A DNA stretch of 27,804 bases from a virus. Shown piece by piece: positions 1,581-25,203 of the stretch (its first letter is position 1; every line of letters starts with the position of its first letter). The stretch covers positions 1 to 27,804 of IMG/VR virus record IMGVR_UViG_3300047462_000176; one strand, given 5' to 3'. A model generated the notes under the pieces. It was not told the origin of the DNA, searched no databases, and worked only from the letters and a program-made list of their open reading frames with translations. A program made the position numbers and the translations under genes.

Positions 1581-3017
1581 TTATTTTCCAAAAACATCTA
1601 TAGCTTTGCGCAAACGAGATATAACTTCTTCTTCTCCAAGTGTTTGAATAATTGTGTCAATACTACCAGAAGATATTTTGCTACCAGATAAAGCACATCG
1701 CAAAGTAATTGCTACGTCTTTCATTTTCAATTCATATTTTTCTGGAAATGAATGGAAATCTCCACCAATAAAGAAATAACTTAAAAACGATTTGATTATT
1801 TCAATATTTGATGAAAGAACGGTTTTTGCACCATCATCGTATTCTGGCAAAGTATGCAAAAATTCTACTGATTTAATTAATTCATTCCAATTTTTTGCAC
1901 GTTCTTTTAATTCAAAAACCATTTTGTCATTGGCGTTCAAACGATTGTAAAAATTAATATCTGTTTCGTCTTTTGAGAACAAAACTCCAATTCCATTAAA
2001 TCCACGATTAGAAAAAGTACATTCGGAATATATTTTATATTTTACTTCATCTATATTTACTTTCTGAAGGAAATGATAATTTATATTATCTAATTTCTTT
2101 TTGTCAGTACGACTTGGTGATTTGCCAATTTGTGTAATATCAAAACTGGCTATCATTTCCTCCATGGTCATAAAGTCTTTAGCATGCCCCCAACCAAGCC
2201 CTGCAAGGTAGCTACAGACCGCTTCAGGCAAATAACCATCTTTCTCATATGAAAGTAAATCAGGCGCTCCATTGCGCTTAGAATACTTTTTGCCATTTTC
2301 ATCATGAATTAATGGAAGATGTGCAAAAGTTGGCACTTCCCATCCCATAGCTTTATAAATTTGAATTTGTTTATAAGTGTTGGTAATATGGTCATTGCCG
2401 CGAATAACATGCGTAATAAGACTATCATGGTCATCAACAACAACCGCCAACAAATATGTTGGTGTTCCATCAGAACGCATAATAACAAAATCATCTAATT
2501 CTGAATTATTAATAGATTTTTTACCATGAATTAAATCATCAAATTCTGTCACACCATCCAATGGCATTTTTATTCTTATTGATGGTTTTATAGAATTCAA
2601 TGATGGTTCATCAAAATTTGGTTCAATATTAATGGGTGGACGCCACTTCCTATCATATTTAAAACCAATATTTTTTTGAGTCGCGATTTCTCTTTGTTCA
2701 TCTAATTCTTCTTGCGTTGTATAACAAAGATATGCACCACCATTTTTTAAAAGTGTTGAACAAATTTCTTTATGTCTTTCAATTTGTTCTGATTGAACAA
2801 CAGCCAAATCATACTTTGACTGTAATCCCAACCACATTAATCCATTAAAGATATTATCTTCAAATTCTTGTTTTGACCGTTCTTTATCTGTATCTTCAAT
2901 ACGAAGACAAAATTCTCCCTTGTGATGATGGGCAAACAAATAATTGAAAATTGCTGTTCTTGCTCCCCCAATATGCAAATTTCCAGTCGGACTTGGGGCA
3001 AATCTAGTTTTAATCAT
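1581..3017 (-). CDS. gltX: Glutamyl-tRNA synthetase
   Basis: A 478-residue class I aminoacyl-tRNA synthetase, about the full bacterial GluRS length. The ATP-binding signature follows RFAPSPTG as HIGG (residues 15-18). IEDTDKERS (about 40-48), the strongly conserved VDDHD/HVIRGNDH block (195-210) and the KMSKS-type loop as KKYSKRNG (243-250) are all present, so the catalytic core looks intact. The anticodon-binding half, from about residue 320, is more divergent. It would charge tRNA-Glu with glutamate in the host cytoplasm. The catalytic half resembles alphaproteobacterial GltX proteins as I remember them, suggesting capture from such a host (inference). It is the last gene of a leftward operon. 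Synthetase genes in phages are uncommon and usually belong to large genomes. Confidence 0.93.
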   Translation of the reverse strand: MIKTRFAPSPTGNLHIGGARTAIFNYLFAHHHKGEFCLRIEDTDKERSKQEFEDNIFNGLMWLGLQSKYDLAVVQSEQIERHKEICSTLLKNGGAYLCYTTQEELDEQREIATQKNIGFKYDRKWRPPINIEPNFDEPSLNSIKPSIRIKMPLDGVTEFDDLIHGKKSINNSELDDFVIMRSDGTPTYLLAVVVDDHDSLITHVIRGNDHITNTYKQIQIYKAMGWEVPTFAHLPLIHDENGKKYSKRNGAPDLLSYEKDGYLPEAVCSYLAGLGWGHAKDFMTMEEMIASFDITQIGKSPSRTDKKKLDNINYHFLQKVNIDEVKYKIYSECTFSNRGFNGIGVLFSKDETDINFYNRLNANDKMVFELKERAKNWNELIKSVEFLHTLPEYDDGAKTVLSSNIEIIKSFLSYFFIGGDFHSFPEKYELKMKDVAITLRCALSGSKISSGSIDTIIQTLGEEEVISRLRKAIDVFGK

Positions 3018-5396: not shown

Positions 5397-5422
5397 ATAT
5401 ACGGGAATTATTTCCCGTATAT
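5397..5422. terminator. Two-way terminator between phoH and the endonuclease gene
   Basis: ATATACGGGAA (5397-5407) pairs perfectly with TTCCCGTATAT (5412-5422) around a TTAT loop. It starts 5 bases after the phoH stop. The TAA of the convergent gene lies in the loop (5410-5408). A-rich sequence on the left and T/A-rich sequence on the right make it usable from both sides. Confidence 0.75.
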
Positions 5423-7300
5423 AAATTTAATTTTTCCACAATCATAGTATCGAGAAAAACCCAAAGATTCCATTGTTTCTTTTTCGGTAGTAATTGTTTC
5501 CAATAAATATTTTTTCTTTATTTTTTCTTTGGTAAAATTGCTCTTATGAAACATTTGATTTCCCCTTACATAATGGTAATCTGGATTGATTATTTTATCT
5601 TCTATAAAACCAGTTTTTCTATAAAGTTCTCCAGAACTATAACTCAAATCTGCAAAGGTTACTATTGGTTCTGAATTCATATTGCGCCAATGTTTAAGCA
5701 TTTTACTGAATATACCACAATGTGTATATTCATCAGAACAAAAACGAACCATTTCAAGTATTCCAGTTCCTCTTTGTCTTCCAAATAACATAACAGCAAC
5801 CAAAGTATTATTTTTATCATATGCACCAATGGATGCGGTGACATGTTGTGGGCAACCTTGAATGTGATATTTGTTAACAAAATTTTTGCAGATAGAAAAT
5901 GATGTATTTTCAACTTTTAATTTTCTTGCTGGTAATCCAGATGGTGTTTTACCACAGAGATTTAGTATTTTATTAAATATGATCTGTTTTTTATCGTTTT
6001 CATCTAACAAATTACTTGGGACCATCAACAATCTTATATTGTTATCATTGCATTTTTTCCATTTATTGTAATGATAATCGTTAGAAATTTTTTTATCTGA
6101 ATGATAATATAATCCATTTATTTCTATACCAACATTATAATCTGGTAAAAATAAATCAATTTCCATACTTTTTCCATTATTATGTTTTATCCCTCGGTGT
6201 CTTGGTTTACAAAAAATATTTTTTTCAGATAACCAATGTTGAATTTCTAATTCATATGAACTATTCCCAAATGGAATTTCATAAAGTCTACGATAATTGC
6301 ATATAGTTGTCCTATTTACTTCAAGTTCAGAAGCAGCAGTATATAATGAGCGCGTAGACATAAAATCTTCAAATTTTTCTTTATCTAATAAAATTGATAG
6401 TGTTTTTTCAGAATAATTTTTATGTTGAGTTATTCTTCCATTTTTTGATATTTGGGTTTCTTGTCTTTCATCAACATGTTTTTTTGATTGTATGGGAAAC
6501 GATGTGCCATAATTTTGTAATGAAGTATTTTTTGATTTTTCTTTAAACTCGGTTTGTACATAATGCCTAATACCAATTTCGTTTTCTCTTTGGTCACATA
6601 TTTCATCATATTTTTTTCTCCATTCATCACTCCCAACGAAATTATCACTGCCGTATCTTTCTTGATTTGTTGCGATAATTTTTTGTTTTATTAAATCAGA
6701 TTCCAATGGACTATCTGTACCGTATCTTTCTTGACAAATGGCTTTTAAATTTTCTTTGTTTTCTTTTGTTGCAAGAAATGTTTTTTCTCCATATTTTTGT
6801 ATATTTGTTTCAAACACTTTGTTTTTCATTGTTTCAGAATGCATTATGTGTTCTACACCAAATCTTTCTTTTGTTGTTTGTGCTCTCTTTAATTTTATTT
6901 TTTCTTTTTCTTCTAAATCTTTTGATTCATATTTATTTTTCATATTTTCTGTATAACAAGGACAATATCTTTTACAAAATTTATATTTAATTGCGAAATC
7001 ATCAAATCTTTTATCTAATCCATGAACACATTTTTTTTCCATTTTGGTTAGAAAAAAATATATTTTTTCACTTATGTTTTCTATATCAGGAACTAAATCT
7101 GATATTTTTTGATTTATTATTTTGTCATGTTTTGCTATATAACGCAAAACAATAATAGCAGCATTTAGTGCATTGTATTCTTGTCCATTATATGGAGCAA
7201 ATCTGATATTTTTGTGGTTTTCTTTTAAATACGAAATAAAATATGTTTTTGTTTTTTCATCATTAAAATTTTCAAGTAAATTAAACCAATCTATTGTCAA
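5408..7300 (-). CDS. Free-standing homing-endonuclease-like protein with DNA-binding repeats and a C-terminal acyltransferase-like domain
   Basis: A 630-residue protein starting at TTG (7300), with AAGGA 10 bases upstream. After an N-terminal helical region with a Cys cluster (about 90-115), residues 140-290 hold repeats of the type E-R-Y-G-x4-x-E-S...K, as in phage endonucleases where such repeats bind DNA. A short helix-turn-helix-like stretch (SLYTAASELEVNRTTICNY) follows. The Vsr/EDxHD-like nuclease core is EIDLFLPDYNVGIEINGLYYHS, with conserved Glu-x-Asp and Glu...His. The C-terminal 170 residues (VAVMLFGRQRG...FADLSYSSGELYRKTGF) form the GNAT-like domain often fused to this family. It probably cuts DNA near its own locus. 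It lies convergent to phoH and resembles a mobile intron-less insertion. The exact target is unknown. Confidence 0.75.
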   Translation of the reverse strand: MTIDWFNLLENFNDEKTKTYFISYLKENHKNIRFAPYNGQEYNALNAAIIVLRYIAKHDKIINQKISDLVPDIENISEKIYFFLTKMEKKCVHGLDKRFDDFAIKYKFCKRYCPCYTENMKNKYESKDLEEKEKIKLKRAQTTKERFGVEHIMHSETMKNKVFETNIQKYGEKTFLATKENKENLKAICQERYGTDSPLESDLIKQKIIATNQERYGSDNFVGSDEWRKKYDEICDQRENEIGIRHYVQTEFKEKSKNTSLQNYGTSFPIQSKKHVDERQETQISKNGRITQHKNYSEKTLSILLDKEKFEDFMSTRSLYTAASELEVNRTTICNYRRLYEIPFGNSSYELEIQHWLSEKNIFCKPRHRGIKHNNGKSMEIDLFLPDYNVGIEINGLYYHSDKKISNDYHYNKWKKCNDNNIRLLMVPSNLLDENDKKQIIFNKILNLCGKTPSGLPARKLKVENTSFSICKNFVNKYHIQGCPQHVTASIGAYDKNNTLVAVMLFGRQRGTGILEMVRFCSDEYTHCGIFSKMLKHWRNMNSEPIVTFADLSYSSGELYRKTGFIEDKIINPDYHYVRGNQMFHKSNFTKEKIKKKYLLETITTEKETMESLGFSRYYDCGKIKFIYGK

Positions 7301-10793: not shown

Positions 10794-10801
10794 TATAAAT
10801 A
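10794..10801 (+). promoter_or_regulatory. T4-type late promoter for the tail tube gene
   Basis: An exact TATAAATA lies 32 bases before the ATG of the gp19-like gene. T4 late promoters consist of this single element, read by host core polymerase with the gp55 sigma factor and activated by the sliding clamp through gp33. The clamp and a DsbA-like protein are encoded in this window. Confidence 0.65.
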
Positions 10802-14203: not shown

Positions 14204-16450
14204 ATGTCTTACATTGATGCGTTCTATGATAGAAAAAAAGATAAAATAAACATTGTAGAGCGCGTCAATGGAAAACGTGTATTAATTGAAAGCAAAAATG
14301 TAAAACATGTGTTTTATTATGAAAATCCTATGGGACATAATAAAACAATTTATGGTCATCAATGTTCGATATATTCAACAAATGATTTCAAGAAATTTCG
14401 TAAAGAATTATCTGAAAAACAAGAAAAACATAGAATATTTGAATCTGATATAAATCCAGTCTTTCGTTATCTTGCAGATAATTATAAGAATGTTCCAGCA
14501 CCAGAATTGAATGTATGTTTTTTCGATATTGAAGTAGATTTAGATATTACTAAAGGATATGCACCAACAGATAATCCGTTTAGTCCTATTACGGCTATTA
14601 CATTATATTTAAGTGAAACAAAATCTTTAATTACTTTGGCATTATGTCCACCAACATTAAAATTGGAACAAGCTAAAAAAATAGCAAGCAATTTTGAAAA
14701 TACATTTTGTTTTTCAGATGAAAAAGAATTGCTTGATATGTTTTTGAATTTGATTGAAAACGCCGATGTGATAACAAGTTGGAACGGAGAAATGTATGAC
14801 ATACCATACACCGTCAATCGTGTTGAAAGAATTTTAGGCAAAGAAGCAACAAAAAGATTTTGTTTATTTGAACAATATCCAAAGGCAAGAGAATATAAAA
14901 AGTTTCAAAAAACATTTAAAACTTATGAATTAATTGGTAGAGTTCATTTAGATTATTTAATTCTTTATCAGAAACACAATCCACAACAACAACAATCTTA
15001 TCGTTTAGATAATATTGGTGAAATTGAAGTTGGGGAAAACAAAATCCCATATGAAGGAACAATTGATAAATTATGGCGAGATGATTTTGATAAATTTATT
15101 GCGTATAATCGTCAAGACGTTGATATTATGGTTAAAATTGATGAGAAGAAAAAATTCATCGAATTATCAAATCAAATTGCGCATGCTAATTGTGTATTAT
15201 TTAAAACAACAATTGGTACAGTTTCATTAGTTGAACAATCAATTATAAACGAAATGCATGAAATGGGTTTAATTGTTCCAAATCGCCCATTTAAAGATTG
15301 GGATAATGAAGATGATTTTGATATTGAAGAAAAGCAGCCAGTAGTTGGCGCATATGTAGCTCATCCAAAAACTGGAAAACATCAACATATTGGTTGTGGT
15401 GATATAAATTCGCTATATCCTTCTGCTATTCGCGCATTAAATATGAGTCCAGAAACTTTGGTTGGACAAATTAGATTAGATAAAACAAATCAATTGGTTG
15501 CTGATAGAATTGCATCTGGTATAGATAGGGCTTCTGCTTGGGAAGGAATATTTATTGCACTTGAAGTGCAACAGATGTTGGACAACACTGATGATATTTT
15601 AACTGTAGATTTTGAAGATAAATTAACAGATGTTATAAACACAAAAACATTTACTGCAAAAGAATTTTACGAATATATTTTCAATCCAAATAACCATTTA
15701 TGTATTACTGCTAATGGAACAATTTTTAGAACTGACGTTGAAGGAATTATTCCAGCATTATTAGAAAAATGGTATAAATTAAGAAAAGAATATCAATTCA
15801 AAGAAAAAGATTTTAAAAACAAATCTTTGCAGAAAGATTTTACAGAACAAGAAAAATTAGAATTTAAAAATCAATCTGTGTTTTTTAATCAGAGACAATA
15901 TGTATATAAAATACTTTTGAATGCATTGTATGGTGCGTTATTAAATGATGCTTTGCGTTTCTATGATGGTAGAATTGGTCAATCTACTACTTTGTCTGGT
16001 CGCACGATTACAAAACATATGAATTCAATGGTAAATGAAATAATAACTGGAAAATATGACTATCAAGGAGAAGCAATTTTCGCAGTTGATACTGATTCGG
16101 TTGCAAAAGAAAGTATAATAAATACAAACTTTGGTGATATTTCTATTGAACATTTGTTTTATATGAATGATATAAAATGGATTGATGGACAAAAAGAATA
16201 TTCAAGAAGTGATAAAATAAAAGTTAAATCTTTTGATGAAAAAACTAATCAAGTTTTATATAAGTGTCCATCTTATGTTTATCGCCATAAAACAAAAAAG
16301 AAAAAATGGAAAATAACAGATACAGAAGGAAATTCTGTTGTTATAACAGAAGATCATTCAATTATGGTTGAAAGAGAAAATAAATTCATTGAAATAAAAC
16401 CAGAAAATGCAATGTTAAATGATATTTTAATTAAAATTATAAATACATAA
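14204..16450 (+). CDS. 43: DNA polymerase, N-terminal part fused to an N-intein (T4 gp43-like)
   Basis: A 748-residue product: 631 residues of family B polymerase plus a 117-residue N-intein. The proofreading exonuclease is complete: Exo I FDIEVD (Asp108, Glu110), Exo II WNGEMYD (Asn194, Asp199), Exo III YNRQD (Tyr301, Asp305). Polymerase motif A is DINSLYPS (400-407), motif B is KILLNALYG (569-577), and motif C begins DTD at 629-631. There the extein stops and the intein starts with Ser632. The thumb and the KKKKY motif are missing here and are encoded at 17751-18641. The stop codon lies in a perfect palindrome. Function in replication should need trans-splicing with the second gene. Confidence 0.93.
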   Translation: MSYIDAFYDRKKDKINIVERVNGKRVLIESKNVKHVFYYENPMGHNKTIYGHQCSIYSTNDFKKFRKELSEKQEKHRIFESDINPVFRYLADNYKNVPAPELNVCFFDIEVDLDITKGYAPTDNPFSPITAITLYLSETKSLITLALCPPTLKLEQAKKIASNFENTFCFSDEKELLDMFLNLIENADVITSWNGEMYDIPYTVNRVERILGKEATKRFCLFEQYPKAREYKKFQKTFKTYELIGRVHLDYLILYQKHNPQQQQSYRLDNIGEIEVGENKIPYEGTIDKLWRDDFDKFIAYNRQDVDIMVKIDEKKKFIELSNQIAHANCVLFKTTIGTVSLVEQSIINEMHEMGLIVPNRPFKDWDNEDDFDIEEKQPVVGAYVAHPKTGKHQHIGCGDINSLYPSAIRALNMSPETLVGQIRLDKTNQLVADRIASGIDRASAWEGIFIALEVQQMLDNTDDILTVDFEDKLTDVINTKTFTAKEFYEYIFNPNNHLCITANGTIFRTDVEGIIPALLEKWYKLRKEYQFKEKDFKNKSLQKDFTEQEKLEFKNQSVFFNQRQYVYKILLNALYGALLNDALRFYDGRIGQSTTLSGRTITKHMNSMVNEIITGKYDYQGEAIFAVDTDSVAKESIINTNFGDISIEHLFYMNDIKWIDGQKEYSRSDKIKVKSFDEKTNQVLYKCPSYVYRHKTKKKKWKITDTEGNSVVITEDHSIMVERENKFIEIKPENAMLNDILIKIINT
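16097..16450 (+). other. N-terminal half of a split intein (117 residues)
   Basis: The insert begins with Ser1 in S-V-x-K-E-S-I-I-x-T-x-x-G, matching intein block A, where Cys1 is more usual. Block B is TEDH (protein residues 715-718), the Thr and His that assist the N-to-S or N-to-O acyl shift. It ends at TAA 16448-16450 without the C-terminal blocks, as expected for a naturally split intein. The insertion lies within the catalytic DTD/S motif of the polymerase. Confidence 0.88.
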
Positions 16451-16476
16451 AGTATTCCGATATCGGAATACTTTAT
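16447..16476. promoter_or_regulatory. Perfect 30-bp palindrome between the first polymerase gene and the endonuclease gene
   Basis: The half-site ATAAAGTATTCCGAT (16447-16461) is followed directly by its exact reverse complement (16462-16476). It contains the stop codon of the first polymerase gene (16448-16450) and is followed immediately by GGGA (16477-16480), the likely Shine-Dalgarno sequence of the endonuclease (ATG at 16492). In RNA it gives a stem of about 12-13 bp. There is no U-run, so it is more likely an RNA stability or translation element than a terminator. Confidence 0.8.
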
Positions 16477-16491
16477 GGGAAAAATAGTAAA

Positions 16492-17619
16492 ATGGTTGGT
16501 AAAAGAAAAACTGAATATTATATTAAAAAATATGGCGAAGAAATAGGCAAACAAAATTATTTGAATATGGTGAAACGTAGAGAAGATAAAGAAACACGAT
16601 TAAAAAACGGAAGATTTATAAAATTAACAGGAAATAATGAAAAAGATATTGCAAACGGAGATGCTATAAAATGCGAAGGGTGTGGTTTGGTTGCATCAAA
16701 TTTACAATCATCACATTTCAAAAGCAAATGTAAAATTAAATCAATTGAAGAATATAAAAAATTATATCCAGATGCTCCATTAAAATCCCAAAATTTAATT
16801 AATCTTTCAAAATTAACCTTTGAAAATTTTATTTTAAAATATGGTGATGAAGAAGGACAAAAAAGATGGAAATCTTATTGTGATAAGCAAGCAGAAGTTA
16901 ATTCTTTTGAATATAAAGCTAAAAAATTTGGTTTTACAAAAGAAGATTTTGATAACTTTAATTTTTCTCGTGCTGTAACTTTTGATAATTTAATAAATCG
17001 GCATGGAATTGAAAATGGAACAGAAATTTGGAAATCATATTGTGAAAAACAAAGATATACAAACACTTTAGAATATTATGTTGAGAAATATGGAAAAGAG
17101 TTTGGAAAAGAAAAATGGCAAGAATATAATAAAGAAAAAGGAAAATCACAAAATCCAGAATGGATTATGGAAAAATATAACGTTTCTTTTGATGATGCTT
17201 TAAAAATACTTAGTGAAAGAAAAATGACCAATGATGGGTTTTCGAGTAATACAGAAAAATTGTTTGTAGATGATTTGTTTAAAAATTTGGGTTATGATTT
17301 ACAATATAGCTATAAAACAAGACAATATTGTCTTTGGAATAATATAGACAAAAAACCAAATTTTTATGATGTTTGTTGTAGAGAAAAAATGAAAATAATT
17401 GAATATTGTGGTGATTATTGGCACGCAAATCCGTTTATGTATCAACCAGATTTTTTATTTAAACAAAGAAATAAAACTGCTAAAAATATATGGGAAGAAG
17501 ATTATAATAAAATAATGACAGCAGAAAAATATGGGTTTAAAATAAAAATTATATGGGAAAGTGAATACTTTAAAAATGGAATTCAAGAATCTATAAAATT
17601 TTTAATGGATGATGATTAA
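16492..17619 (+). CDS. Vsr-like (EDxHD) homing endonuclease between the split polymerase genes
   Basis: A 375-residue protein. Residues 58-98 form a zinc-finger-like unit, CEGCGLVASNLQSSH...KSIEEYKKLYP, of the MucR/Ros type common in phage endonucleases. Residues about 105-215 contain repeated units of the form K-Y/H-G-x-E-x-G...W-x-x-Y-x-x-K, also seen once near the N-terminus and probably DNA-binding. The C-terminal nuclease has EYCGDYWHANP (about 302-312) and then a W-E-x-D-x-N-K-I helix and a KIIWESEYF strand. This fits the EDxHD nucleases related to very-short-patch repair Vsr and to I-Bth0305I. It is coupled to the following gene by TAATG. It probably cleaves polymerase genes lacking the insertion and so spreads the split arrangement. 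The gene is extremely AT-rich. Confidence 0.82.
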   Translation: MVGKRKTEYYIKKYGEEIGKQNYLNMVKRREDKETRLKNGRFIKLTGNNEKDIANGDAIKCEGCGLVASNLQSSHFKSKCKIKSIEEYKKLYPDAPLKSQNLINLSKLTFENFILKYGDEEGQKRWKSYCDKQAEVNSFEYKAKKFGFTKEDFDNFNFSRAVTFDNLINRHGIENGTEIWKSYCEKQRYTNTLEYYVEKYGKEFGKEKWQEYNKEKGKSQNPEWIMEKYNVSFDDALKILSERKMTNDGFSSNTEKLFVDDLFKNLGYDLQYSYKTRQYCLWNNIDKKPNFYDVCCREKMKIIEYCGDYWHANPFMYQPDFLFKQRNKTAKNIWEEDYNKIMTAEKYGFKIKIIWESEYFKNGIQESIKFLMDDD

Positions 17620-17750
17620 TGGAATTAGCTGGTAGAAGCAAAATAGCAAAAATAGAACAATTAGAATACTTTGATGATGAATACGTGTATGATATAGGAA
17701 TTGATAAAGAAACGCCTTATTTTTTTGCAAATAACATTTTAGTTCATAAT
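17619..17750 (+). other. C-terminal half of a split intein (44 residues)
   Basis: The first 44 residues of the second polymerase gene carry block F (YVYDIGIDKETPYFFANN) and block G (ILVHN) with the penultimate His43 and terminal Asn44. Ser follows as the +1 nucleophile at 17751. The length is like other naturally split C-inteins of phage origin (about 35-45 residues). Confidence 0.9.
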
Positions 17751-18641
17751 TCTTCTTATTTTTCTGCATATGAATTTCTAAAAGATAAGCCAGAATACAA
17801 AGATTTTGAATGGTCCAGAGAAAACATCATTGAATTATATGATTCTATCATGGATGCAACTAATGAAACATTTCCTGATTTTATGCAAAAAACATTTCAT
17901 ACAACTTTGGAGAGAGGGCAATTAATAAAAGCTGGTAGAGAATTGGTTGCAAGTACAGCTTTATTCATAAAAAAGAAAAAATATGCCATGATGGTTTATG
18001 ATAAAGAAAATATTCGTTTGGATGTAGATAACAAACCTGGAGAAATGAAAATCATGGGTTTGGATATGAAACGTTCTGATACACCAAAATTCATGCAGAA
18101 ATTTTTAGAAAATATTCTTCAAGATATTCTTACCGATGCACCACAAAGAGATATGTATAATAAAGTAAAAGCATTCAGAGAAATATTTACAGAACGTCCT
18201 GGTTGGGAAAAAGGTTCACCTAAAAAAGTTTCCAATATGACAGAATATTCTGAAAAATTTGAAAATGCATCATCATTAAATATATTTTCGCAAGGTGGCA
18301 AAGGCAAAGTCAATATGCCTGGACATGTTAGAGCATCCATTAATTGGAATATGCTTTGTGATTTATATCATGATTATTATGCAACAAGAATTACAGATGG
18401 TACGAGAATTATTGTTTGTCAATTATTGAAAAATTCTCATAAAATGACTTCAATTGCTTATCCTGTTGATGAAGCACATTTACCAGAATGGTTTAAAAAA
18501 TTACCATTTGACCATCGTGGTATGGAAGAAGTTATTGTTGATATGAAATTAAGCAATCTTGTTGGTGTTCTTGATTGGGATTTATCTCAAACAAAAAATA
18601 ATGACAATGATGAGTTTTTCGTATTCAAAAAGAAAAATTGA
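17619..18641 (+). CDS. 43: DNA polymerase, C-terminal part preceded by a C-intein (T4 gp43-like)
   Basis: A 340-residue product: a 44-residue C-intein, then 296 residues of polymerase starting SSYFSAYEF. Joined to DTD of the first gene this gives DTDSSYFSA, so motif C is rebuilt exactly and the mature enzyme is 631+296=927 residues (T4 gp43 is 898). The fragment contains the KKKKYAMMVYD element (the conserved K-K-x-Y of family B polymerases), the DMKRSDTP stretch, the thumb, and a C-terminal end (FFVFKKKN) that may be the clamp-binding tail. The ATG overlaps the endonuclease stop as TAATG. Supply of this half may therefore depend on translation of the endonuclease. Confidence 0.92.
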   Translation: MELAGRSKIAKIEQLEYFDDEYVYDIGIDKETPYFFANNILVHNSSYFSAYEFLKDKPEYKDFEWSRENIIELYDSIMDATNETFPDFMQKTFHTTLERGQLIKAGRELVASTALFIKKKKYAMMVYDKENIRLDVDNKPGEMKIMGLDMKRSDTPKFMQKFLENILQDILTDAPQRDMYNKVKAFREIFTERPGWEKGSPKKVSNMTEYSEKFENASSLNIFSQGGKGKVNMPGHVRASINWNMLCDLYHDYYATRITDGTRIIVCQLLKNSHKMTSIAYPVDEAHLPEWFKKLPFDHRGMEEVIVDMKLSNLVGVLDWDLSQTKNNDNDEFFVFKKKN

Positions 18642-18975: not shown

Positions 18976-19739
18976 CAGATTCGATTATTTCAAACACAGT
19001 ATTAAAAGAAGTTGCTGACCAAATAGGTAAAGCATTTGATATCATTAAATTTGTTGGCACAGATGATTCAACAGAATTTCTAGCCAATGATGAAAATAAA
19101 GTATTTTTCCTTAAAGGTGAATTTAAAACACCTGTTCCAGAACTTAAAGGCGAATTTGGTATACCAGATGTTTCGTTATTCAACGGATTATTGAGATTTC
19201 CAAGTTATAATGCTGATGGTGCAAAAATTTCTGTAACAAGAGAAACCAAAACTTTTAATAATAAAGAAATTGAAGAAACGGTTACGGAATTCAAATTCAG
19301 AGATAAATCAAATAAAGGTGCTAATTATCGTACCATGTCTGCACAACATAAAATCATGGAAGATTTGGCAACTGATATTCCAGAAATTCCTTGGGATGTT
19401 TCATTTAAACCAGAAAAATCTAAAATCAGTGAATTTTTTGAATTGGCAAGATTATGTTCTGGATTTTCAGAAAACATTGCTATTTCATTGATCAATAAAG
19501 AATTAATTTTTTCTTTTGGTGATGAAAATGATTCAAGTCATAATGCAAATATGACATTTGCAACTGATGTTGAAGGAATATTAAAGAAAATTTCCTATCC
19601 AACATCATTGATTTTAAATGTTTTAAAAATCGTTGCAAATTCAACATTCGAATTAAAACTATCAAATCGTAGAATTTTTGGTGTTTTTACAGAAAGCGAA
19701 AATGTAAATTATAAGTATTATGTTCGCGGAAGTGTATAA
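18972..19739 (+). CDS. 45: Sliding clamp, DNA polymerase processivity factor (gp45-like)
   Basis: A 255-residue protein (T4 gp45 is 228). The N-terminal half contains the KGEFGIPDVSLFNGLLRF stretch followed by a strand with AKISVTR, the pattern of phage clamps. The C-terminal half has two further strand-rich segments, FATDVEGILKKISYPTSLI and a FELKLSNRRIFGVF stretch. T4 gp45 is a trimer that encircles DNA, tethers the polymerase and, through gp33/gp55, activates late promoters such as the one at 10794. It overlaps the preceding gene by 4 bases. The match is based on pattern, since these clamps diverge strongly. Confidence 0.75.
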   Translation: MTDSIISNTVLKEVADQIGKAFDIIKFVGTDDSTEFLANDENKVFFLKGEFKTPVPELKGEFGIPDVSLFNGLLRFPSYNADGAKISVTRETKTFNNKEIEETVTEFKFRDKSNKGANYRTMSAQHKIMEDLATDIPEIPWDVSFKPEKSKISEFFELARLCSGFSENIAISLINKELIFSFGDENDSSHNANMTFATDVEGILKKISYPTSLILNVLKIVANSTFELKLSNRRIFGVFTESENVNYKYYVRGSV

Positions 19740-19771
19740 ATACATTAAAATAGTATATTATAGGTATAAAA

Positions 19772-23466: not shown

Positions 23467-24003
23467 ATGCCTCCATTAATTACAATTATGCCGTATTCTG
23501 ATGCTCAATTATATCAGCAAAATTACACTCATGTTTTGAGTTTGACTGAATTTAAACCATCTTTTTATTCAACAAATAATAATTTTATCCATTGGGGAAA
23601 AATGGATGATTCAATTAGAGACATGGGAGAAATTCTTGCACCAACAATGCAAAATCTAAAAAATTGTTTGGAATTTACAAAAAATTTAACATCAGATGAT
23701 AAACTTCTTATTCATTGTCATGCAGGCGTTAGTAGAAGCACTGCTATTGCGGTTGCTGTGTTAATTCAACATGAGATGGATTTTAATGATGCATTTAATT
23801 ATGTTTTGATGATAAGAGATTGCGCCATACCAAATAAAAAAATTGTAGAATTAACAGATAGATATTTTGAATTAAAAAATATGTATGTTGATTTTTATAA
23901 AGATTGGGCGGAAACAGAACAGAAAGATGCTATCATGTTACATAAACCAAGCAAAGAATTGGTTGATGATATGCAAACGTTAATAAACAAAATTATTCTT
24001 TAA
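23467..24003 (+). CDS. Protein tyrosine / dual-specificity phosphatase
   Basis: A 178-residue protein with the complete P-loop signature HCxxGxxRS as HCHAGVSRS (residues 83-91): nucleophile Cys84 and phosphate-binding Arg90. A candidate general acid lies at Asp47/Asp48 (GKMDDSI), about 36 residues upstream as usual for small dual-specificity phosphatases. The helix after the P-loop (TAIAVAVLIQHEMDFNDAF) and the later IPNKKIVELTDRYFEL stretch fit the fold. It would remove phosphate from phosphotyrosine or phosphoserine/threonine proteins, or possibly from RNA or nucleotides as some relatives do. It lies in a run of small accessory genes. The substrate is unknown. Confidence 0.82.
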   Translation: MPPLITIMPYSDAQLYQQNYTHVLSLTEFKPSFYSTNNNFIHWGKMDDSIRDMGEILAPTMQNLKNCLEFTKNLTSDDKLLIHCHAGVSRSTAIAVAVLIQHEMDFNDAFNYVLMIRDCAIPNKKIVELTDRYFELKNMYVDFYKDWAETEQKDAIMLHKPSKELVDDMQTLINKIIL

Positions 24004-24697: not shown

Positions 24698-25141
24698 TTA
24701 CTCTATTTTTGAAGTTGCTCGTAACATCCATTGCATTTTGGTATGTGCTTCTAATCTTTCAGCAAGAAAATTAGCCAATCCTTGTTTGTTTTCTTTGTTC
24801 GCAATCTGAAAAGTTTCAGTTAATAAAGCAATCATTGTTCCGTGATTTTCTAACAAATCTAAAATCATATCTGGTGCAGTTGGTACATGTGGTTGCTCTT
24901 CTATTTTACTTAACTCAATCATTCTTGCCAATGATGAAGGCGCATAAGCATTTAATTGTCTAATTTGTTCACCAAAATCATCAATGGATTTCCAAAGAAT
25001 TTTATATTGTTCTTCGAAAAATGGATGAAGAGACGGAAAATGAATGCCTTCAATATTAAAATGATAAGAATGAGTTTTGAAATATAAACAAACTACTGTA
25101 CCGAGACAGTGTTTCATATTTTGAATTAATTGTTCCATCAT
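24698..25141 (-). CDS. dps: Dps-like ferritin (DNA-protecting, iron-storing)
   Basis: A 147-residue protein from the ATG at 25141 (an ATG at 25138 is equally possible; longer starts would add a non-Dps hydrophobic stretch). The Dps ferroxidase ligands are present with exact spacing, counted from the second Met: His26, His38 (12 later), Asp53 (15 later) and Glu57 (4 later), in YFKTHSYHFNIEG...SLHPFFEEQY...IDDFGE. The C-terminal ERLEAHTKMQWMLRA stretch is also typical. Dps forms a 12-subunit cage that oxidises and stores iron using peroxide and can protect DNA. A phage copy may protect viral DNA or manage iron. TATAAATA (25151-25144) lies so close upstream that transcription from it would be nearly leaderless. 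Confidence 0.9.
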   Translation of the reverse strand: MMEQLIQNMKHCLGTVVCLYFKTHSYHFNIEGIHFPSLHPFFEEQYKILWKSIDDFGEQIRQLNAYAPSSLARMIELSKIEEQPHVPTAPDMILDLLENHGTMIALLTETFQIANKENKQGLANFLAERLEAHTKMQWMLRATSKIE

Positions 25142-25203
25142 TATATTTATATTTAAAAAAATATTTAAATAGTTTATATTATAAAAAACTAAGAGAAACA
25201 TAT

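Follow-up and report, generated by a model that had tools for sequence, protein, structure and literature searches.

The locus at positions 14204-18641 of IMG/VR virus record IMGVR_UViG_3300047462_000176 raises the question of whether a DNA polymerase encoded in two pieces, with a nuclease gene lying between them, is made whole by protein splicing. The locus comprises three co-directional genes, coding for the N-terminal part of the polymerase, a nuclease and the C-terminal part of the polymerase. Analysis of the window (the whole stretch of 27,804 nucleotides) and of related phage loci makes it very likely that this is a T4-gp43-type polymerase split by a motif-C split intein around a free-standing homing-type nuclease.

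Organization of the split polymerase locus

The first open reading frame (ORF; 14204-16450, plus strand, 748 amino acids) encodes an N-extein followed by an N-intein. The N-extein (14204..16096, 631 amino acids) encompasses the exonuclease and part of the palm of a family B DNA polymerase (PolB), matching phrog_262 (E 5e-134) and the Pfam DNA_pol_B_exo1 and DNA_pol_B domains. It shares 51-66% identity with the intein-less PolB of Sinorhizobium phage Phosso and ends in AVDTD, with the motif C aspartates at 16088-16096. The N-intein (16097..16447, 117 residues) continues directly from this point and terminates at a stop codon (16448-16450). The third gene (17619-18641, plus strand, 340 amino acids) begins with a 44-residue C-intein (17619..17750), which contains the block F sequence VYDI and ends in ILVHN. 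The C-extein that follows it (17751..18638, 296 amino acids, stop codon at 18639-18641) corresponds to the PolB palm/thumb part, starts with Ser+1 in SSYFSAYE, matches phrog_262 (E 2e-41) and phrog_1918 (E 3e-45), and is 48% identical to Phosso PolB.

Joining both exteins in silico generates a 927-residue protein with the junction AVDTD|SSYFSAYE (the bar marks the splice point), restoring DTDS and AVDTDSSYFSAYE. The same site is uninterrupted in the intein-less PolB of Phosso (YADTDSSYFSAY) and in the PolB of Agrobacterium phage Atu_ph07 (YNDTDSAYFTAY). Because the splice point falls directly after the second motif-C aspartate, neither half alone contains a complete palm active site. The N- and C-terminal splicing motifs hence reside on two genes flanking parts of one protein, as in a split intein. 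A sequence-only reading of this DNA had proposed the two intein halves with their lengths and terminal residues, the 927-residue product and an insertion directly behind the catalytic aspartates; ORF predictions and domain models bear out both halves to the base, and the in silico join reproduces both product and junction.

Conservation and fold of the intein

The N-intein presents Ser1, the motif-NX His64 (within RHK) and the block B sequence VVITEDHS (T-E-D-H), and each half is recognized by the corresponding domain model (TIGR01445, intein N-terminus, E 2.9e-6; TIGR01443, intein C-terminus, E 0.003). Sequence searches matched the N-intein to 9HTH, the crystal structure of the fused Aes123 PolB1 split intein (E 1.8e-8), and the C-intein to the PolB16 intein 8CPN (E 2e-4). 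The E-values of the domain-model and PHROG matches place the intein and PolB assignments beyond chance. In addition, a profile built from about ten relatives, with the window halves among its seeds, matched both halves (E ~1e-42 and ~1e-19).

Across 129 distinct family members, Ser1 and the motif-NX His (of RHK) are each conserved in 99%, the block B Thr, Asp and His, the block F Asp and the terminal Asn in 100%, and the penultimate His in 98%; the window intein carries every one of these residues. Its His64 aligns with His68 of the Aes intein, and the block X/motif NX His has been reported as specific to cysteine-independent inteins. The window intein also combines Ser1, Ser/Thr+1 and this His in the manner of cysteine-independent PolB inteins, and the one non-catalytic Cys in its N-terminal half makes it cysteine-independent rather than cysteine-free. 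The fold of the family was modelled on a contiguous relative (L023:5010-5501), for which the AlphaFold model (predicted local distance difference test, pLDDT, 97) found 9HTH as its top PDB match (template modelling score, TM, 0.87). The intein family profile aligns with the window-led N-intein alignment at E 1e-39, and a HINT fold is thus predicted for the family, in agreement with the intein-fold check suggested by the sequence-only reading.

Precedents in other phages

The arrangement is already known, and the window is a diverged further example of an experimentally tested kind. The sequence-only reading could not tell if an insertion at the motif C site was already on record; it is, since Aeromonas phage Aes508, Campylobacter phage CP21, Tenacibaculum phage PTm1 and Pseudomonas phage MIJ3 all harbor split inteins at DTD|S. 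The Aes508 gene is annotated as an 'intein-containing split DNA polymerase precursor' with a VSR-like gene between the halves, PTm1 is annotated likewise, and a Vsr-like gene also separates the halves in CP21, so that the three-gene layout of the window recurs in named phages. Free-standing EDxHD/Vsr-like nuclease genes flanked by split-intein halves were reportedly described as 'fractured genes' by Dassa et al. in 2009 for gp41, nrdA/nrdJ and IMPDH in marine metagenomes; the window gene differs in being PolB. The MIJ3 split PolB intein was published in 2019 with a different endonuclease (PMC6892783), and knowledge of split inteins in PolB motif C goes back to Nanoarchaeum, whose intein occupies the pol-c site YGD|TDS (PMC549080). 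Furthermore, trans-splicing in vitro has been demonstrated for the PolB split inteins of Aes123, CP21 and LCGC14 (PMC11923092, PMC12707363), and a further source documents it for relatives (PMC13014065).

One close parallel is the Aes123/Aes508 PolB1 intein, which shares with the window the gene, the DTD|S site, Ser1/Ser+1, a split at the usual endonuclease position and a VSR-like nuclease between the halves. Its N-intein, however, is only ~28-35% identical to that of the window, it belongs to another phage group, and the Aes508 polymerase has an extra upstream break and a group I intron. MIJ3 and PA5oct have the DTD|S site, the split layout, an N-intein 38-40% identical to the window's and a related jumbo-phage PolB, but their middle gene encodes a Hef-like/HNH-type endonuclease instead of a member of the Vsr-like family. 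CP21 and LCGC14 likewise contain Ser1/Ser+1 split inteins in phage-type PolB, but derive from other phage lineages, and CC_R7, a near relative of CP21, has a contiguous intein. The mini-intein of Salicola phage SCTP-2 is related (43% over the N part) and lies in the same PolB motif, but is contiguous, lacks a nuclease gene and sits two codons upstream, at YGD|TDS. The pol-c inteins of archaea, Mimivirus and Nanoarchaeum (the last of them split) also interrupt PolB motif C, but at D|TD, two codons upstream; inserted at DTD|S, the window intein does not belong to the pol-c allele (YGD|TDS/TDG).

Two motif-C sites and twin inteins

When the window nuclease and C-half were used as single queries against viral contigs, almost nothing was returned, and profile queries were required. 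Profile searches of viral contigs and named phages yielded 162 paired motif-C intein records, some from overlapping or duplicate contigs. Their junctions fall in two registers, DTD|S (85 split, 25 contiguous) and D|TD, that is YGD|TDS (42 split, 7 contiguous), with three left unassigned by the script; a single insertion site was hence rejected in favor of two sites 6 bp apart. On the intein tree, a quick tree with many weak branches, the site label requires 5 changes, as opposed to ~35 for shuffled labels, indicating that the lineages at the two sites are largely distinct, and the split or contiguous state changes at least 24 times. The archaeal YAD|TDG insertion site was seen in locus L194. 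One scan of cellular genomes gave 8 loci, all on contigs of metagenome-assembled genomes, some of which may be viral, and wide presence was not seen.

Inteins at both sites, in the order YGD|intein|TD|intein|S, were detected in L021 (5004-6890), L023 (4524-5501) and L077 (5004-6005). In L021, a Vsr-like gene divides the first intein and the second is unbroken, and both are contiguous in L023 and L077. The twin copies are only ~30-40% identical and keep all catalytic residues. Recent duplication or an assembly repeat was rejected as their origin on the basis of this identity and of the placement of the L023 copies in different site lineages. If both twins splice, the middle extein would be a Thr-Asp dipeptide containing a catalytic aspartate. 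The twin arrangement was absent from the named phage records examined, and the only potentially comparable case found in one literature search was that of haloarchaeal MCM double inteins (PMC10643990). Overall, motif C is probably a double target in which each site hosts a distinct lineage of one intein family, the family alternates between split and fused forms, and both sites are filled in the three twin loci.

Two further split PolB inteins presented unusual features. In Desulfovibrio/Nitratidesulfovibrio phage 7757 (L015:2458-6996), a block-B-like stretch is found in both halves (DEDH in the N-half, TEDH in the C-half), and the halves look as if overlapping or partly duplicated. In Prevotella phage Lak-C1 (L014:3880-7187), which has a Vsr-like gene, the N-half shows an in-frame stop directly after DTDS. 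Stop-codon recoding is known for Lak phages; the Lak-C1 stop is consistent with it and may hide the intein from standard annotation.

The nuclease and its gain and loss

The gene between the polymerase halves (16492..17619, plus strand) encodes a free-standing nuclease of 375 amino acids, confirming the fractured-gene layout put forward in the sequence-only reading. The nuclease belongs to PHROG 22677 (phrog_22677, E 2e-55), and its relatives, annotated as 'VSR endonuclease', occupy the same PolB position in several named phages. Its N-terminal part is repeat-rich and DNA-binding-like, and its C-terminal domain (~residues 253-375) is Vsr/PD-(D/E)XK-like, with conserved acidic and His residues (D293, E304 and H311) that are invariant in an alignment of 54 relatives. 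The nuclease model (pLDDT 90) weakly matches the folds of 1cw0 (Vsr; probability 0.97, TMt 0.52) and 3r3p (I-Bth0305I; probability 0.91, TMt 0.63), and its profile matches to Vsr are also weak (E ~0.05). The earlier description of this protein as Vsr-like therefore holds at a distance: with a fold match that is only weak, membership in the Vsr/EDxHD endonucleases is likely rather than proven.

Comparison of close relatives reveals gain and loss of this gene. The contiguous L038 (5004-5483) and the split L041 (3981-5400) are 94-96% identical on either side of a ~0.9 kb nuclease insert, and the L038 gene retains in frame the start region of the split form's C-half (AAAGGTAAAAAAATGGATATTGAAAG). 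This retention points to reversion from split to fused by deletion, which probably took place between short repeats. The nuclease is also present in one member and absent from the other in Campylobacter CP21/CC_R7 and further pairs, and in L049/L070 and L032/L034 it has been lost or reduced while the gene remains split. Between the PolB halves of L032, L035, L051, L129, L137 and L152, only short Vsr-like fragments were identified, as expected of decaying homing endonucleases.

The middle gene of the window could be a decayed or otherwise employed nuclease within a fixed, immobile locus. Such immobility would agree with the weak fold match to Vsr and with the 23 of ~129 split loci that have no recognisable nuclease, several others having only fragments. 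We nonetheless consider it unlikely, since the window ORF is not truncated and preserves the three invariant residues, and since the same nuclease family is found at most split loci (four carry a Hef-like gene) and is present in only one member of some close pairs.

Putative expression signals upstream of the nuclease

A match to the T4-type late promoter core, TATAAATA (16438..16445, plus strand), lies within the last codons of the N-half. It is directly followed by a perfect 32-nt palindrome (16446..16477, plus strand), which shares bases with the N-half stop codon and is predicted to form an RNA hairpin (-19.5 kcal/mol, z -5.7) a short distance ahead of the nuclease ribosome-binding region. 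Within the window alone, TATAAATA is not significant (5 instances found, 5.6 expected). Among nuclease-bearing junctions, it is found on the coding strand in 15 of 74 (2 on the reverse strand), compared to 11 of 399 other ORF ends (Fisher p 4e-7, an optimistic value because related loci share ancestry). The 7-mer ATAAATA is present in 44 of the 74 junctions, against 4 on the reverse strand, and stable hairpins (z below -2.5) occur at 30% of nuclease junctions versus 8.5%. The ribosome site or the start codon lies inside the hairpin in some relatives. Interpretation of the window hairpin as an intrinsic terminator was rejected, as no T-run follows it on the plus strand.

These junction signals resemble the control described for I-TevI, segB, mobE and seg43 (PMC2988022), leading to the prediction that control by a T4-type late promoter and hairpin extends to this endonuclease family. 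At the other end of the nuclease gene, the C-half ATG overlaps the stop codon (TAATG), and the two genes are hence probably translationally coupled. Additional copies of TATAAATA were observed on the coding strand up to ~40 nt upstream of gene starts (10794-10801, plus strand; 19735-19742, plus strand; 25144-25151, minus strand), which suggests T4-type late promoters in this phage.

Proposed mechanism and alternative readings

We propose that the T4-gp43-type polymerase of a jumbo-phage-like virus is produced as two pieces, the first ending with the N-intein and the second beginning with the C-intein, and that the intein parts would associate into a HINT domain. Ser1 would then form an ester with the Asp of DTD, the N-extein would be transferred to Ser+1 and the terminal Asn would cyclise, joining the exteins into the 927-residue polymerase and reconstituting DTDS in motif C. 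When a co-infecting phage carries an intein-less polymerase gene, the Vsr/EDxHD-like nuclease would most likely cut that gene near motif C, and repair would copy the block of intein and nuclease into it. We infer such homing for the window nuclease, as well as its control by the late promoter and hairpin.

Several observations weigh against this interpretation. Splicing of the window proteins is itself a prediction from the published splicing of relatives, the natural Aes123 intein was only ~30% spliced when purified, and the window N-intein, with its non-catalytic Cys, shares only about a third of its residues with the Aes-type intein that was tested. The nuclease fold matches have E-values of 0.12-0.31, none below E 0.001. 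Finally, a second PolB, the presence of which the sequence-only reading had named as grounds for refutation, was not found within the 27.8 kb, but the record is a linear fragment of an incomplete genome and such a gene could sit beyond it.

A different possibility is that the PolB pieces form a non-covalent two-subunit enzyme, with the intein halves persisting as relics or acting only as a docking clamp. Intein-free split polymerases do exist, as illustrated by the Atu_ph07 PolB, which is encoded in two adjacent coding sequences with the break elsewhere and motif C unbroken, and by the additional gp43A/gp43B break of the Aes508 polymerase. In the window, however, the break falls between motif-C residues, relatives splice in vitro, and all splicing residues are kept, as they are in 98-100% of a diverse family, which would not be expected of relics; we therefore deem this possibility very improbable. 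An assembly or sequencing error breaking a contiguous intein-containing gene, a form that does occur in relatives, can be dismissed almost entirely: an intact nuclease ORF of 375 codons, equipped with its own start, separates the halves, and isolate genomes as well as dozens of independent contigs show the same layout.

Other genes in the window

Elsewhere in the window, a glutamyl/glutaminyl-type tRNA synthetase gene (1581-3017, minus strand; PF00749, E 2.5e-89) fits a large-genome phage, and genes for a ferritin/Dps-like protein (24701-25153, minus strand) and a dual-specificity phosphatase (23467-24003) were also identified. A second homing-endonuclease-like gene (5408-7300, minus strand; DUF7487, phrog_3339) lies beside a PhoH gene, and its product is 32% identical over 260 amino acids to that of the Hef-like gene between the PolB halves of phage PA5oct.

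Implications for split inteins

With the window, the small group of Ser1/Ser+1 split inteins, sought after for ligating proteins independently of thiols, gains a diverged member accompanied by a nuclease gene. More unusual among these findings are the twin inteins and the series of split and fused forms. Encompassing close pairs with and without the nuclease, nuclease-less split genes, re-fused genes with the old start codon and adjacent twins, the wider set makes it testable how split inteins arise and revert.

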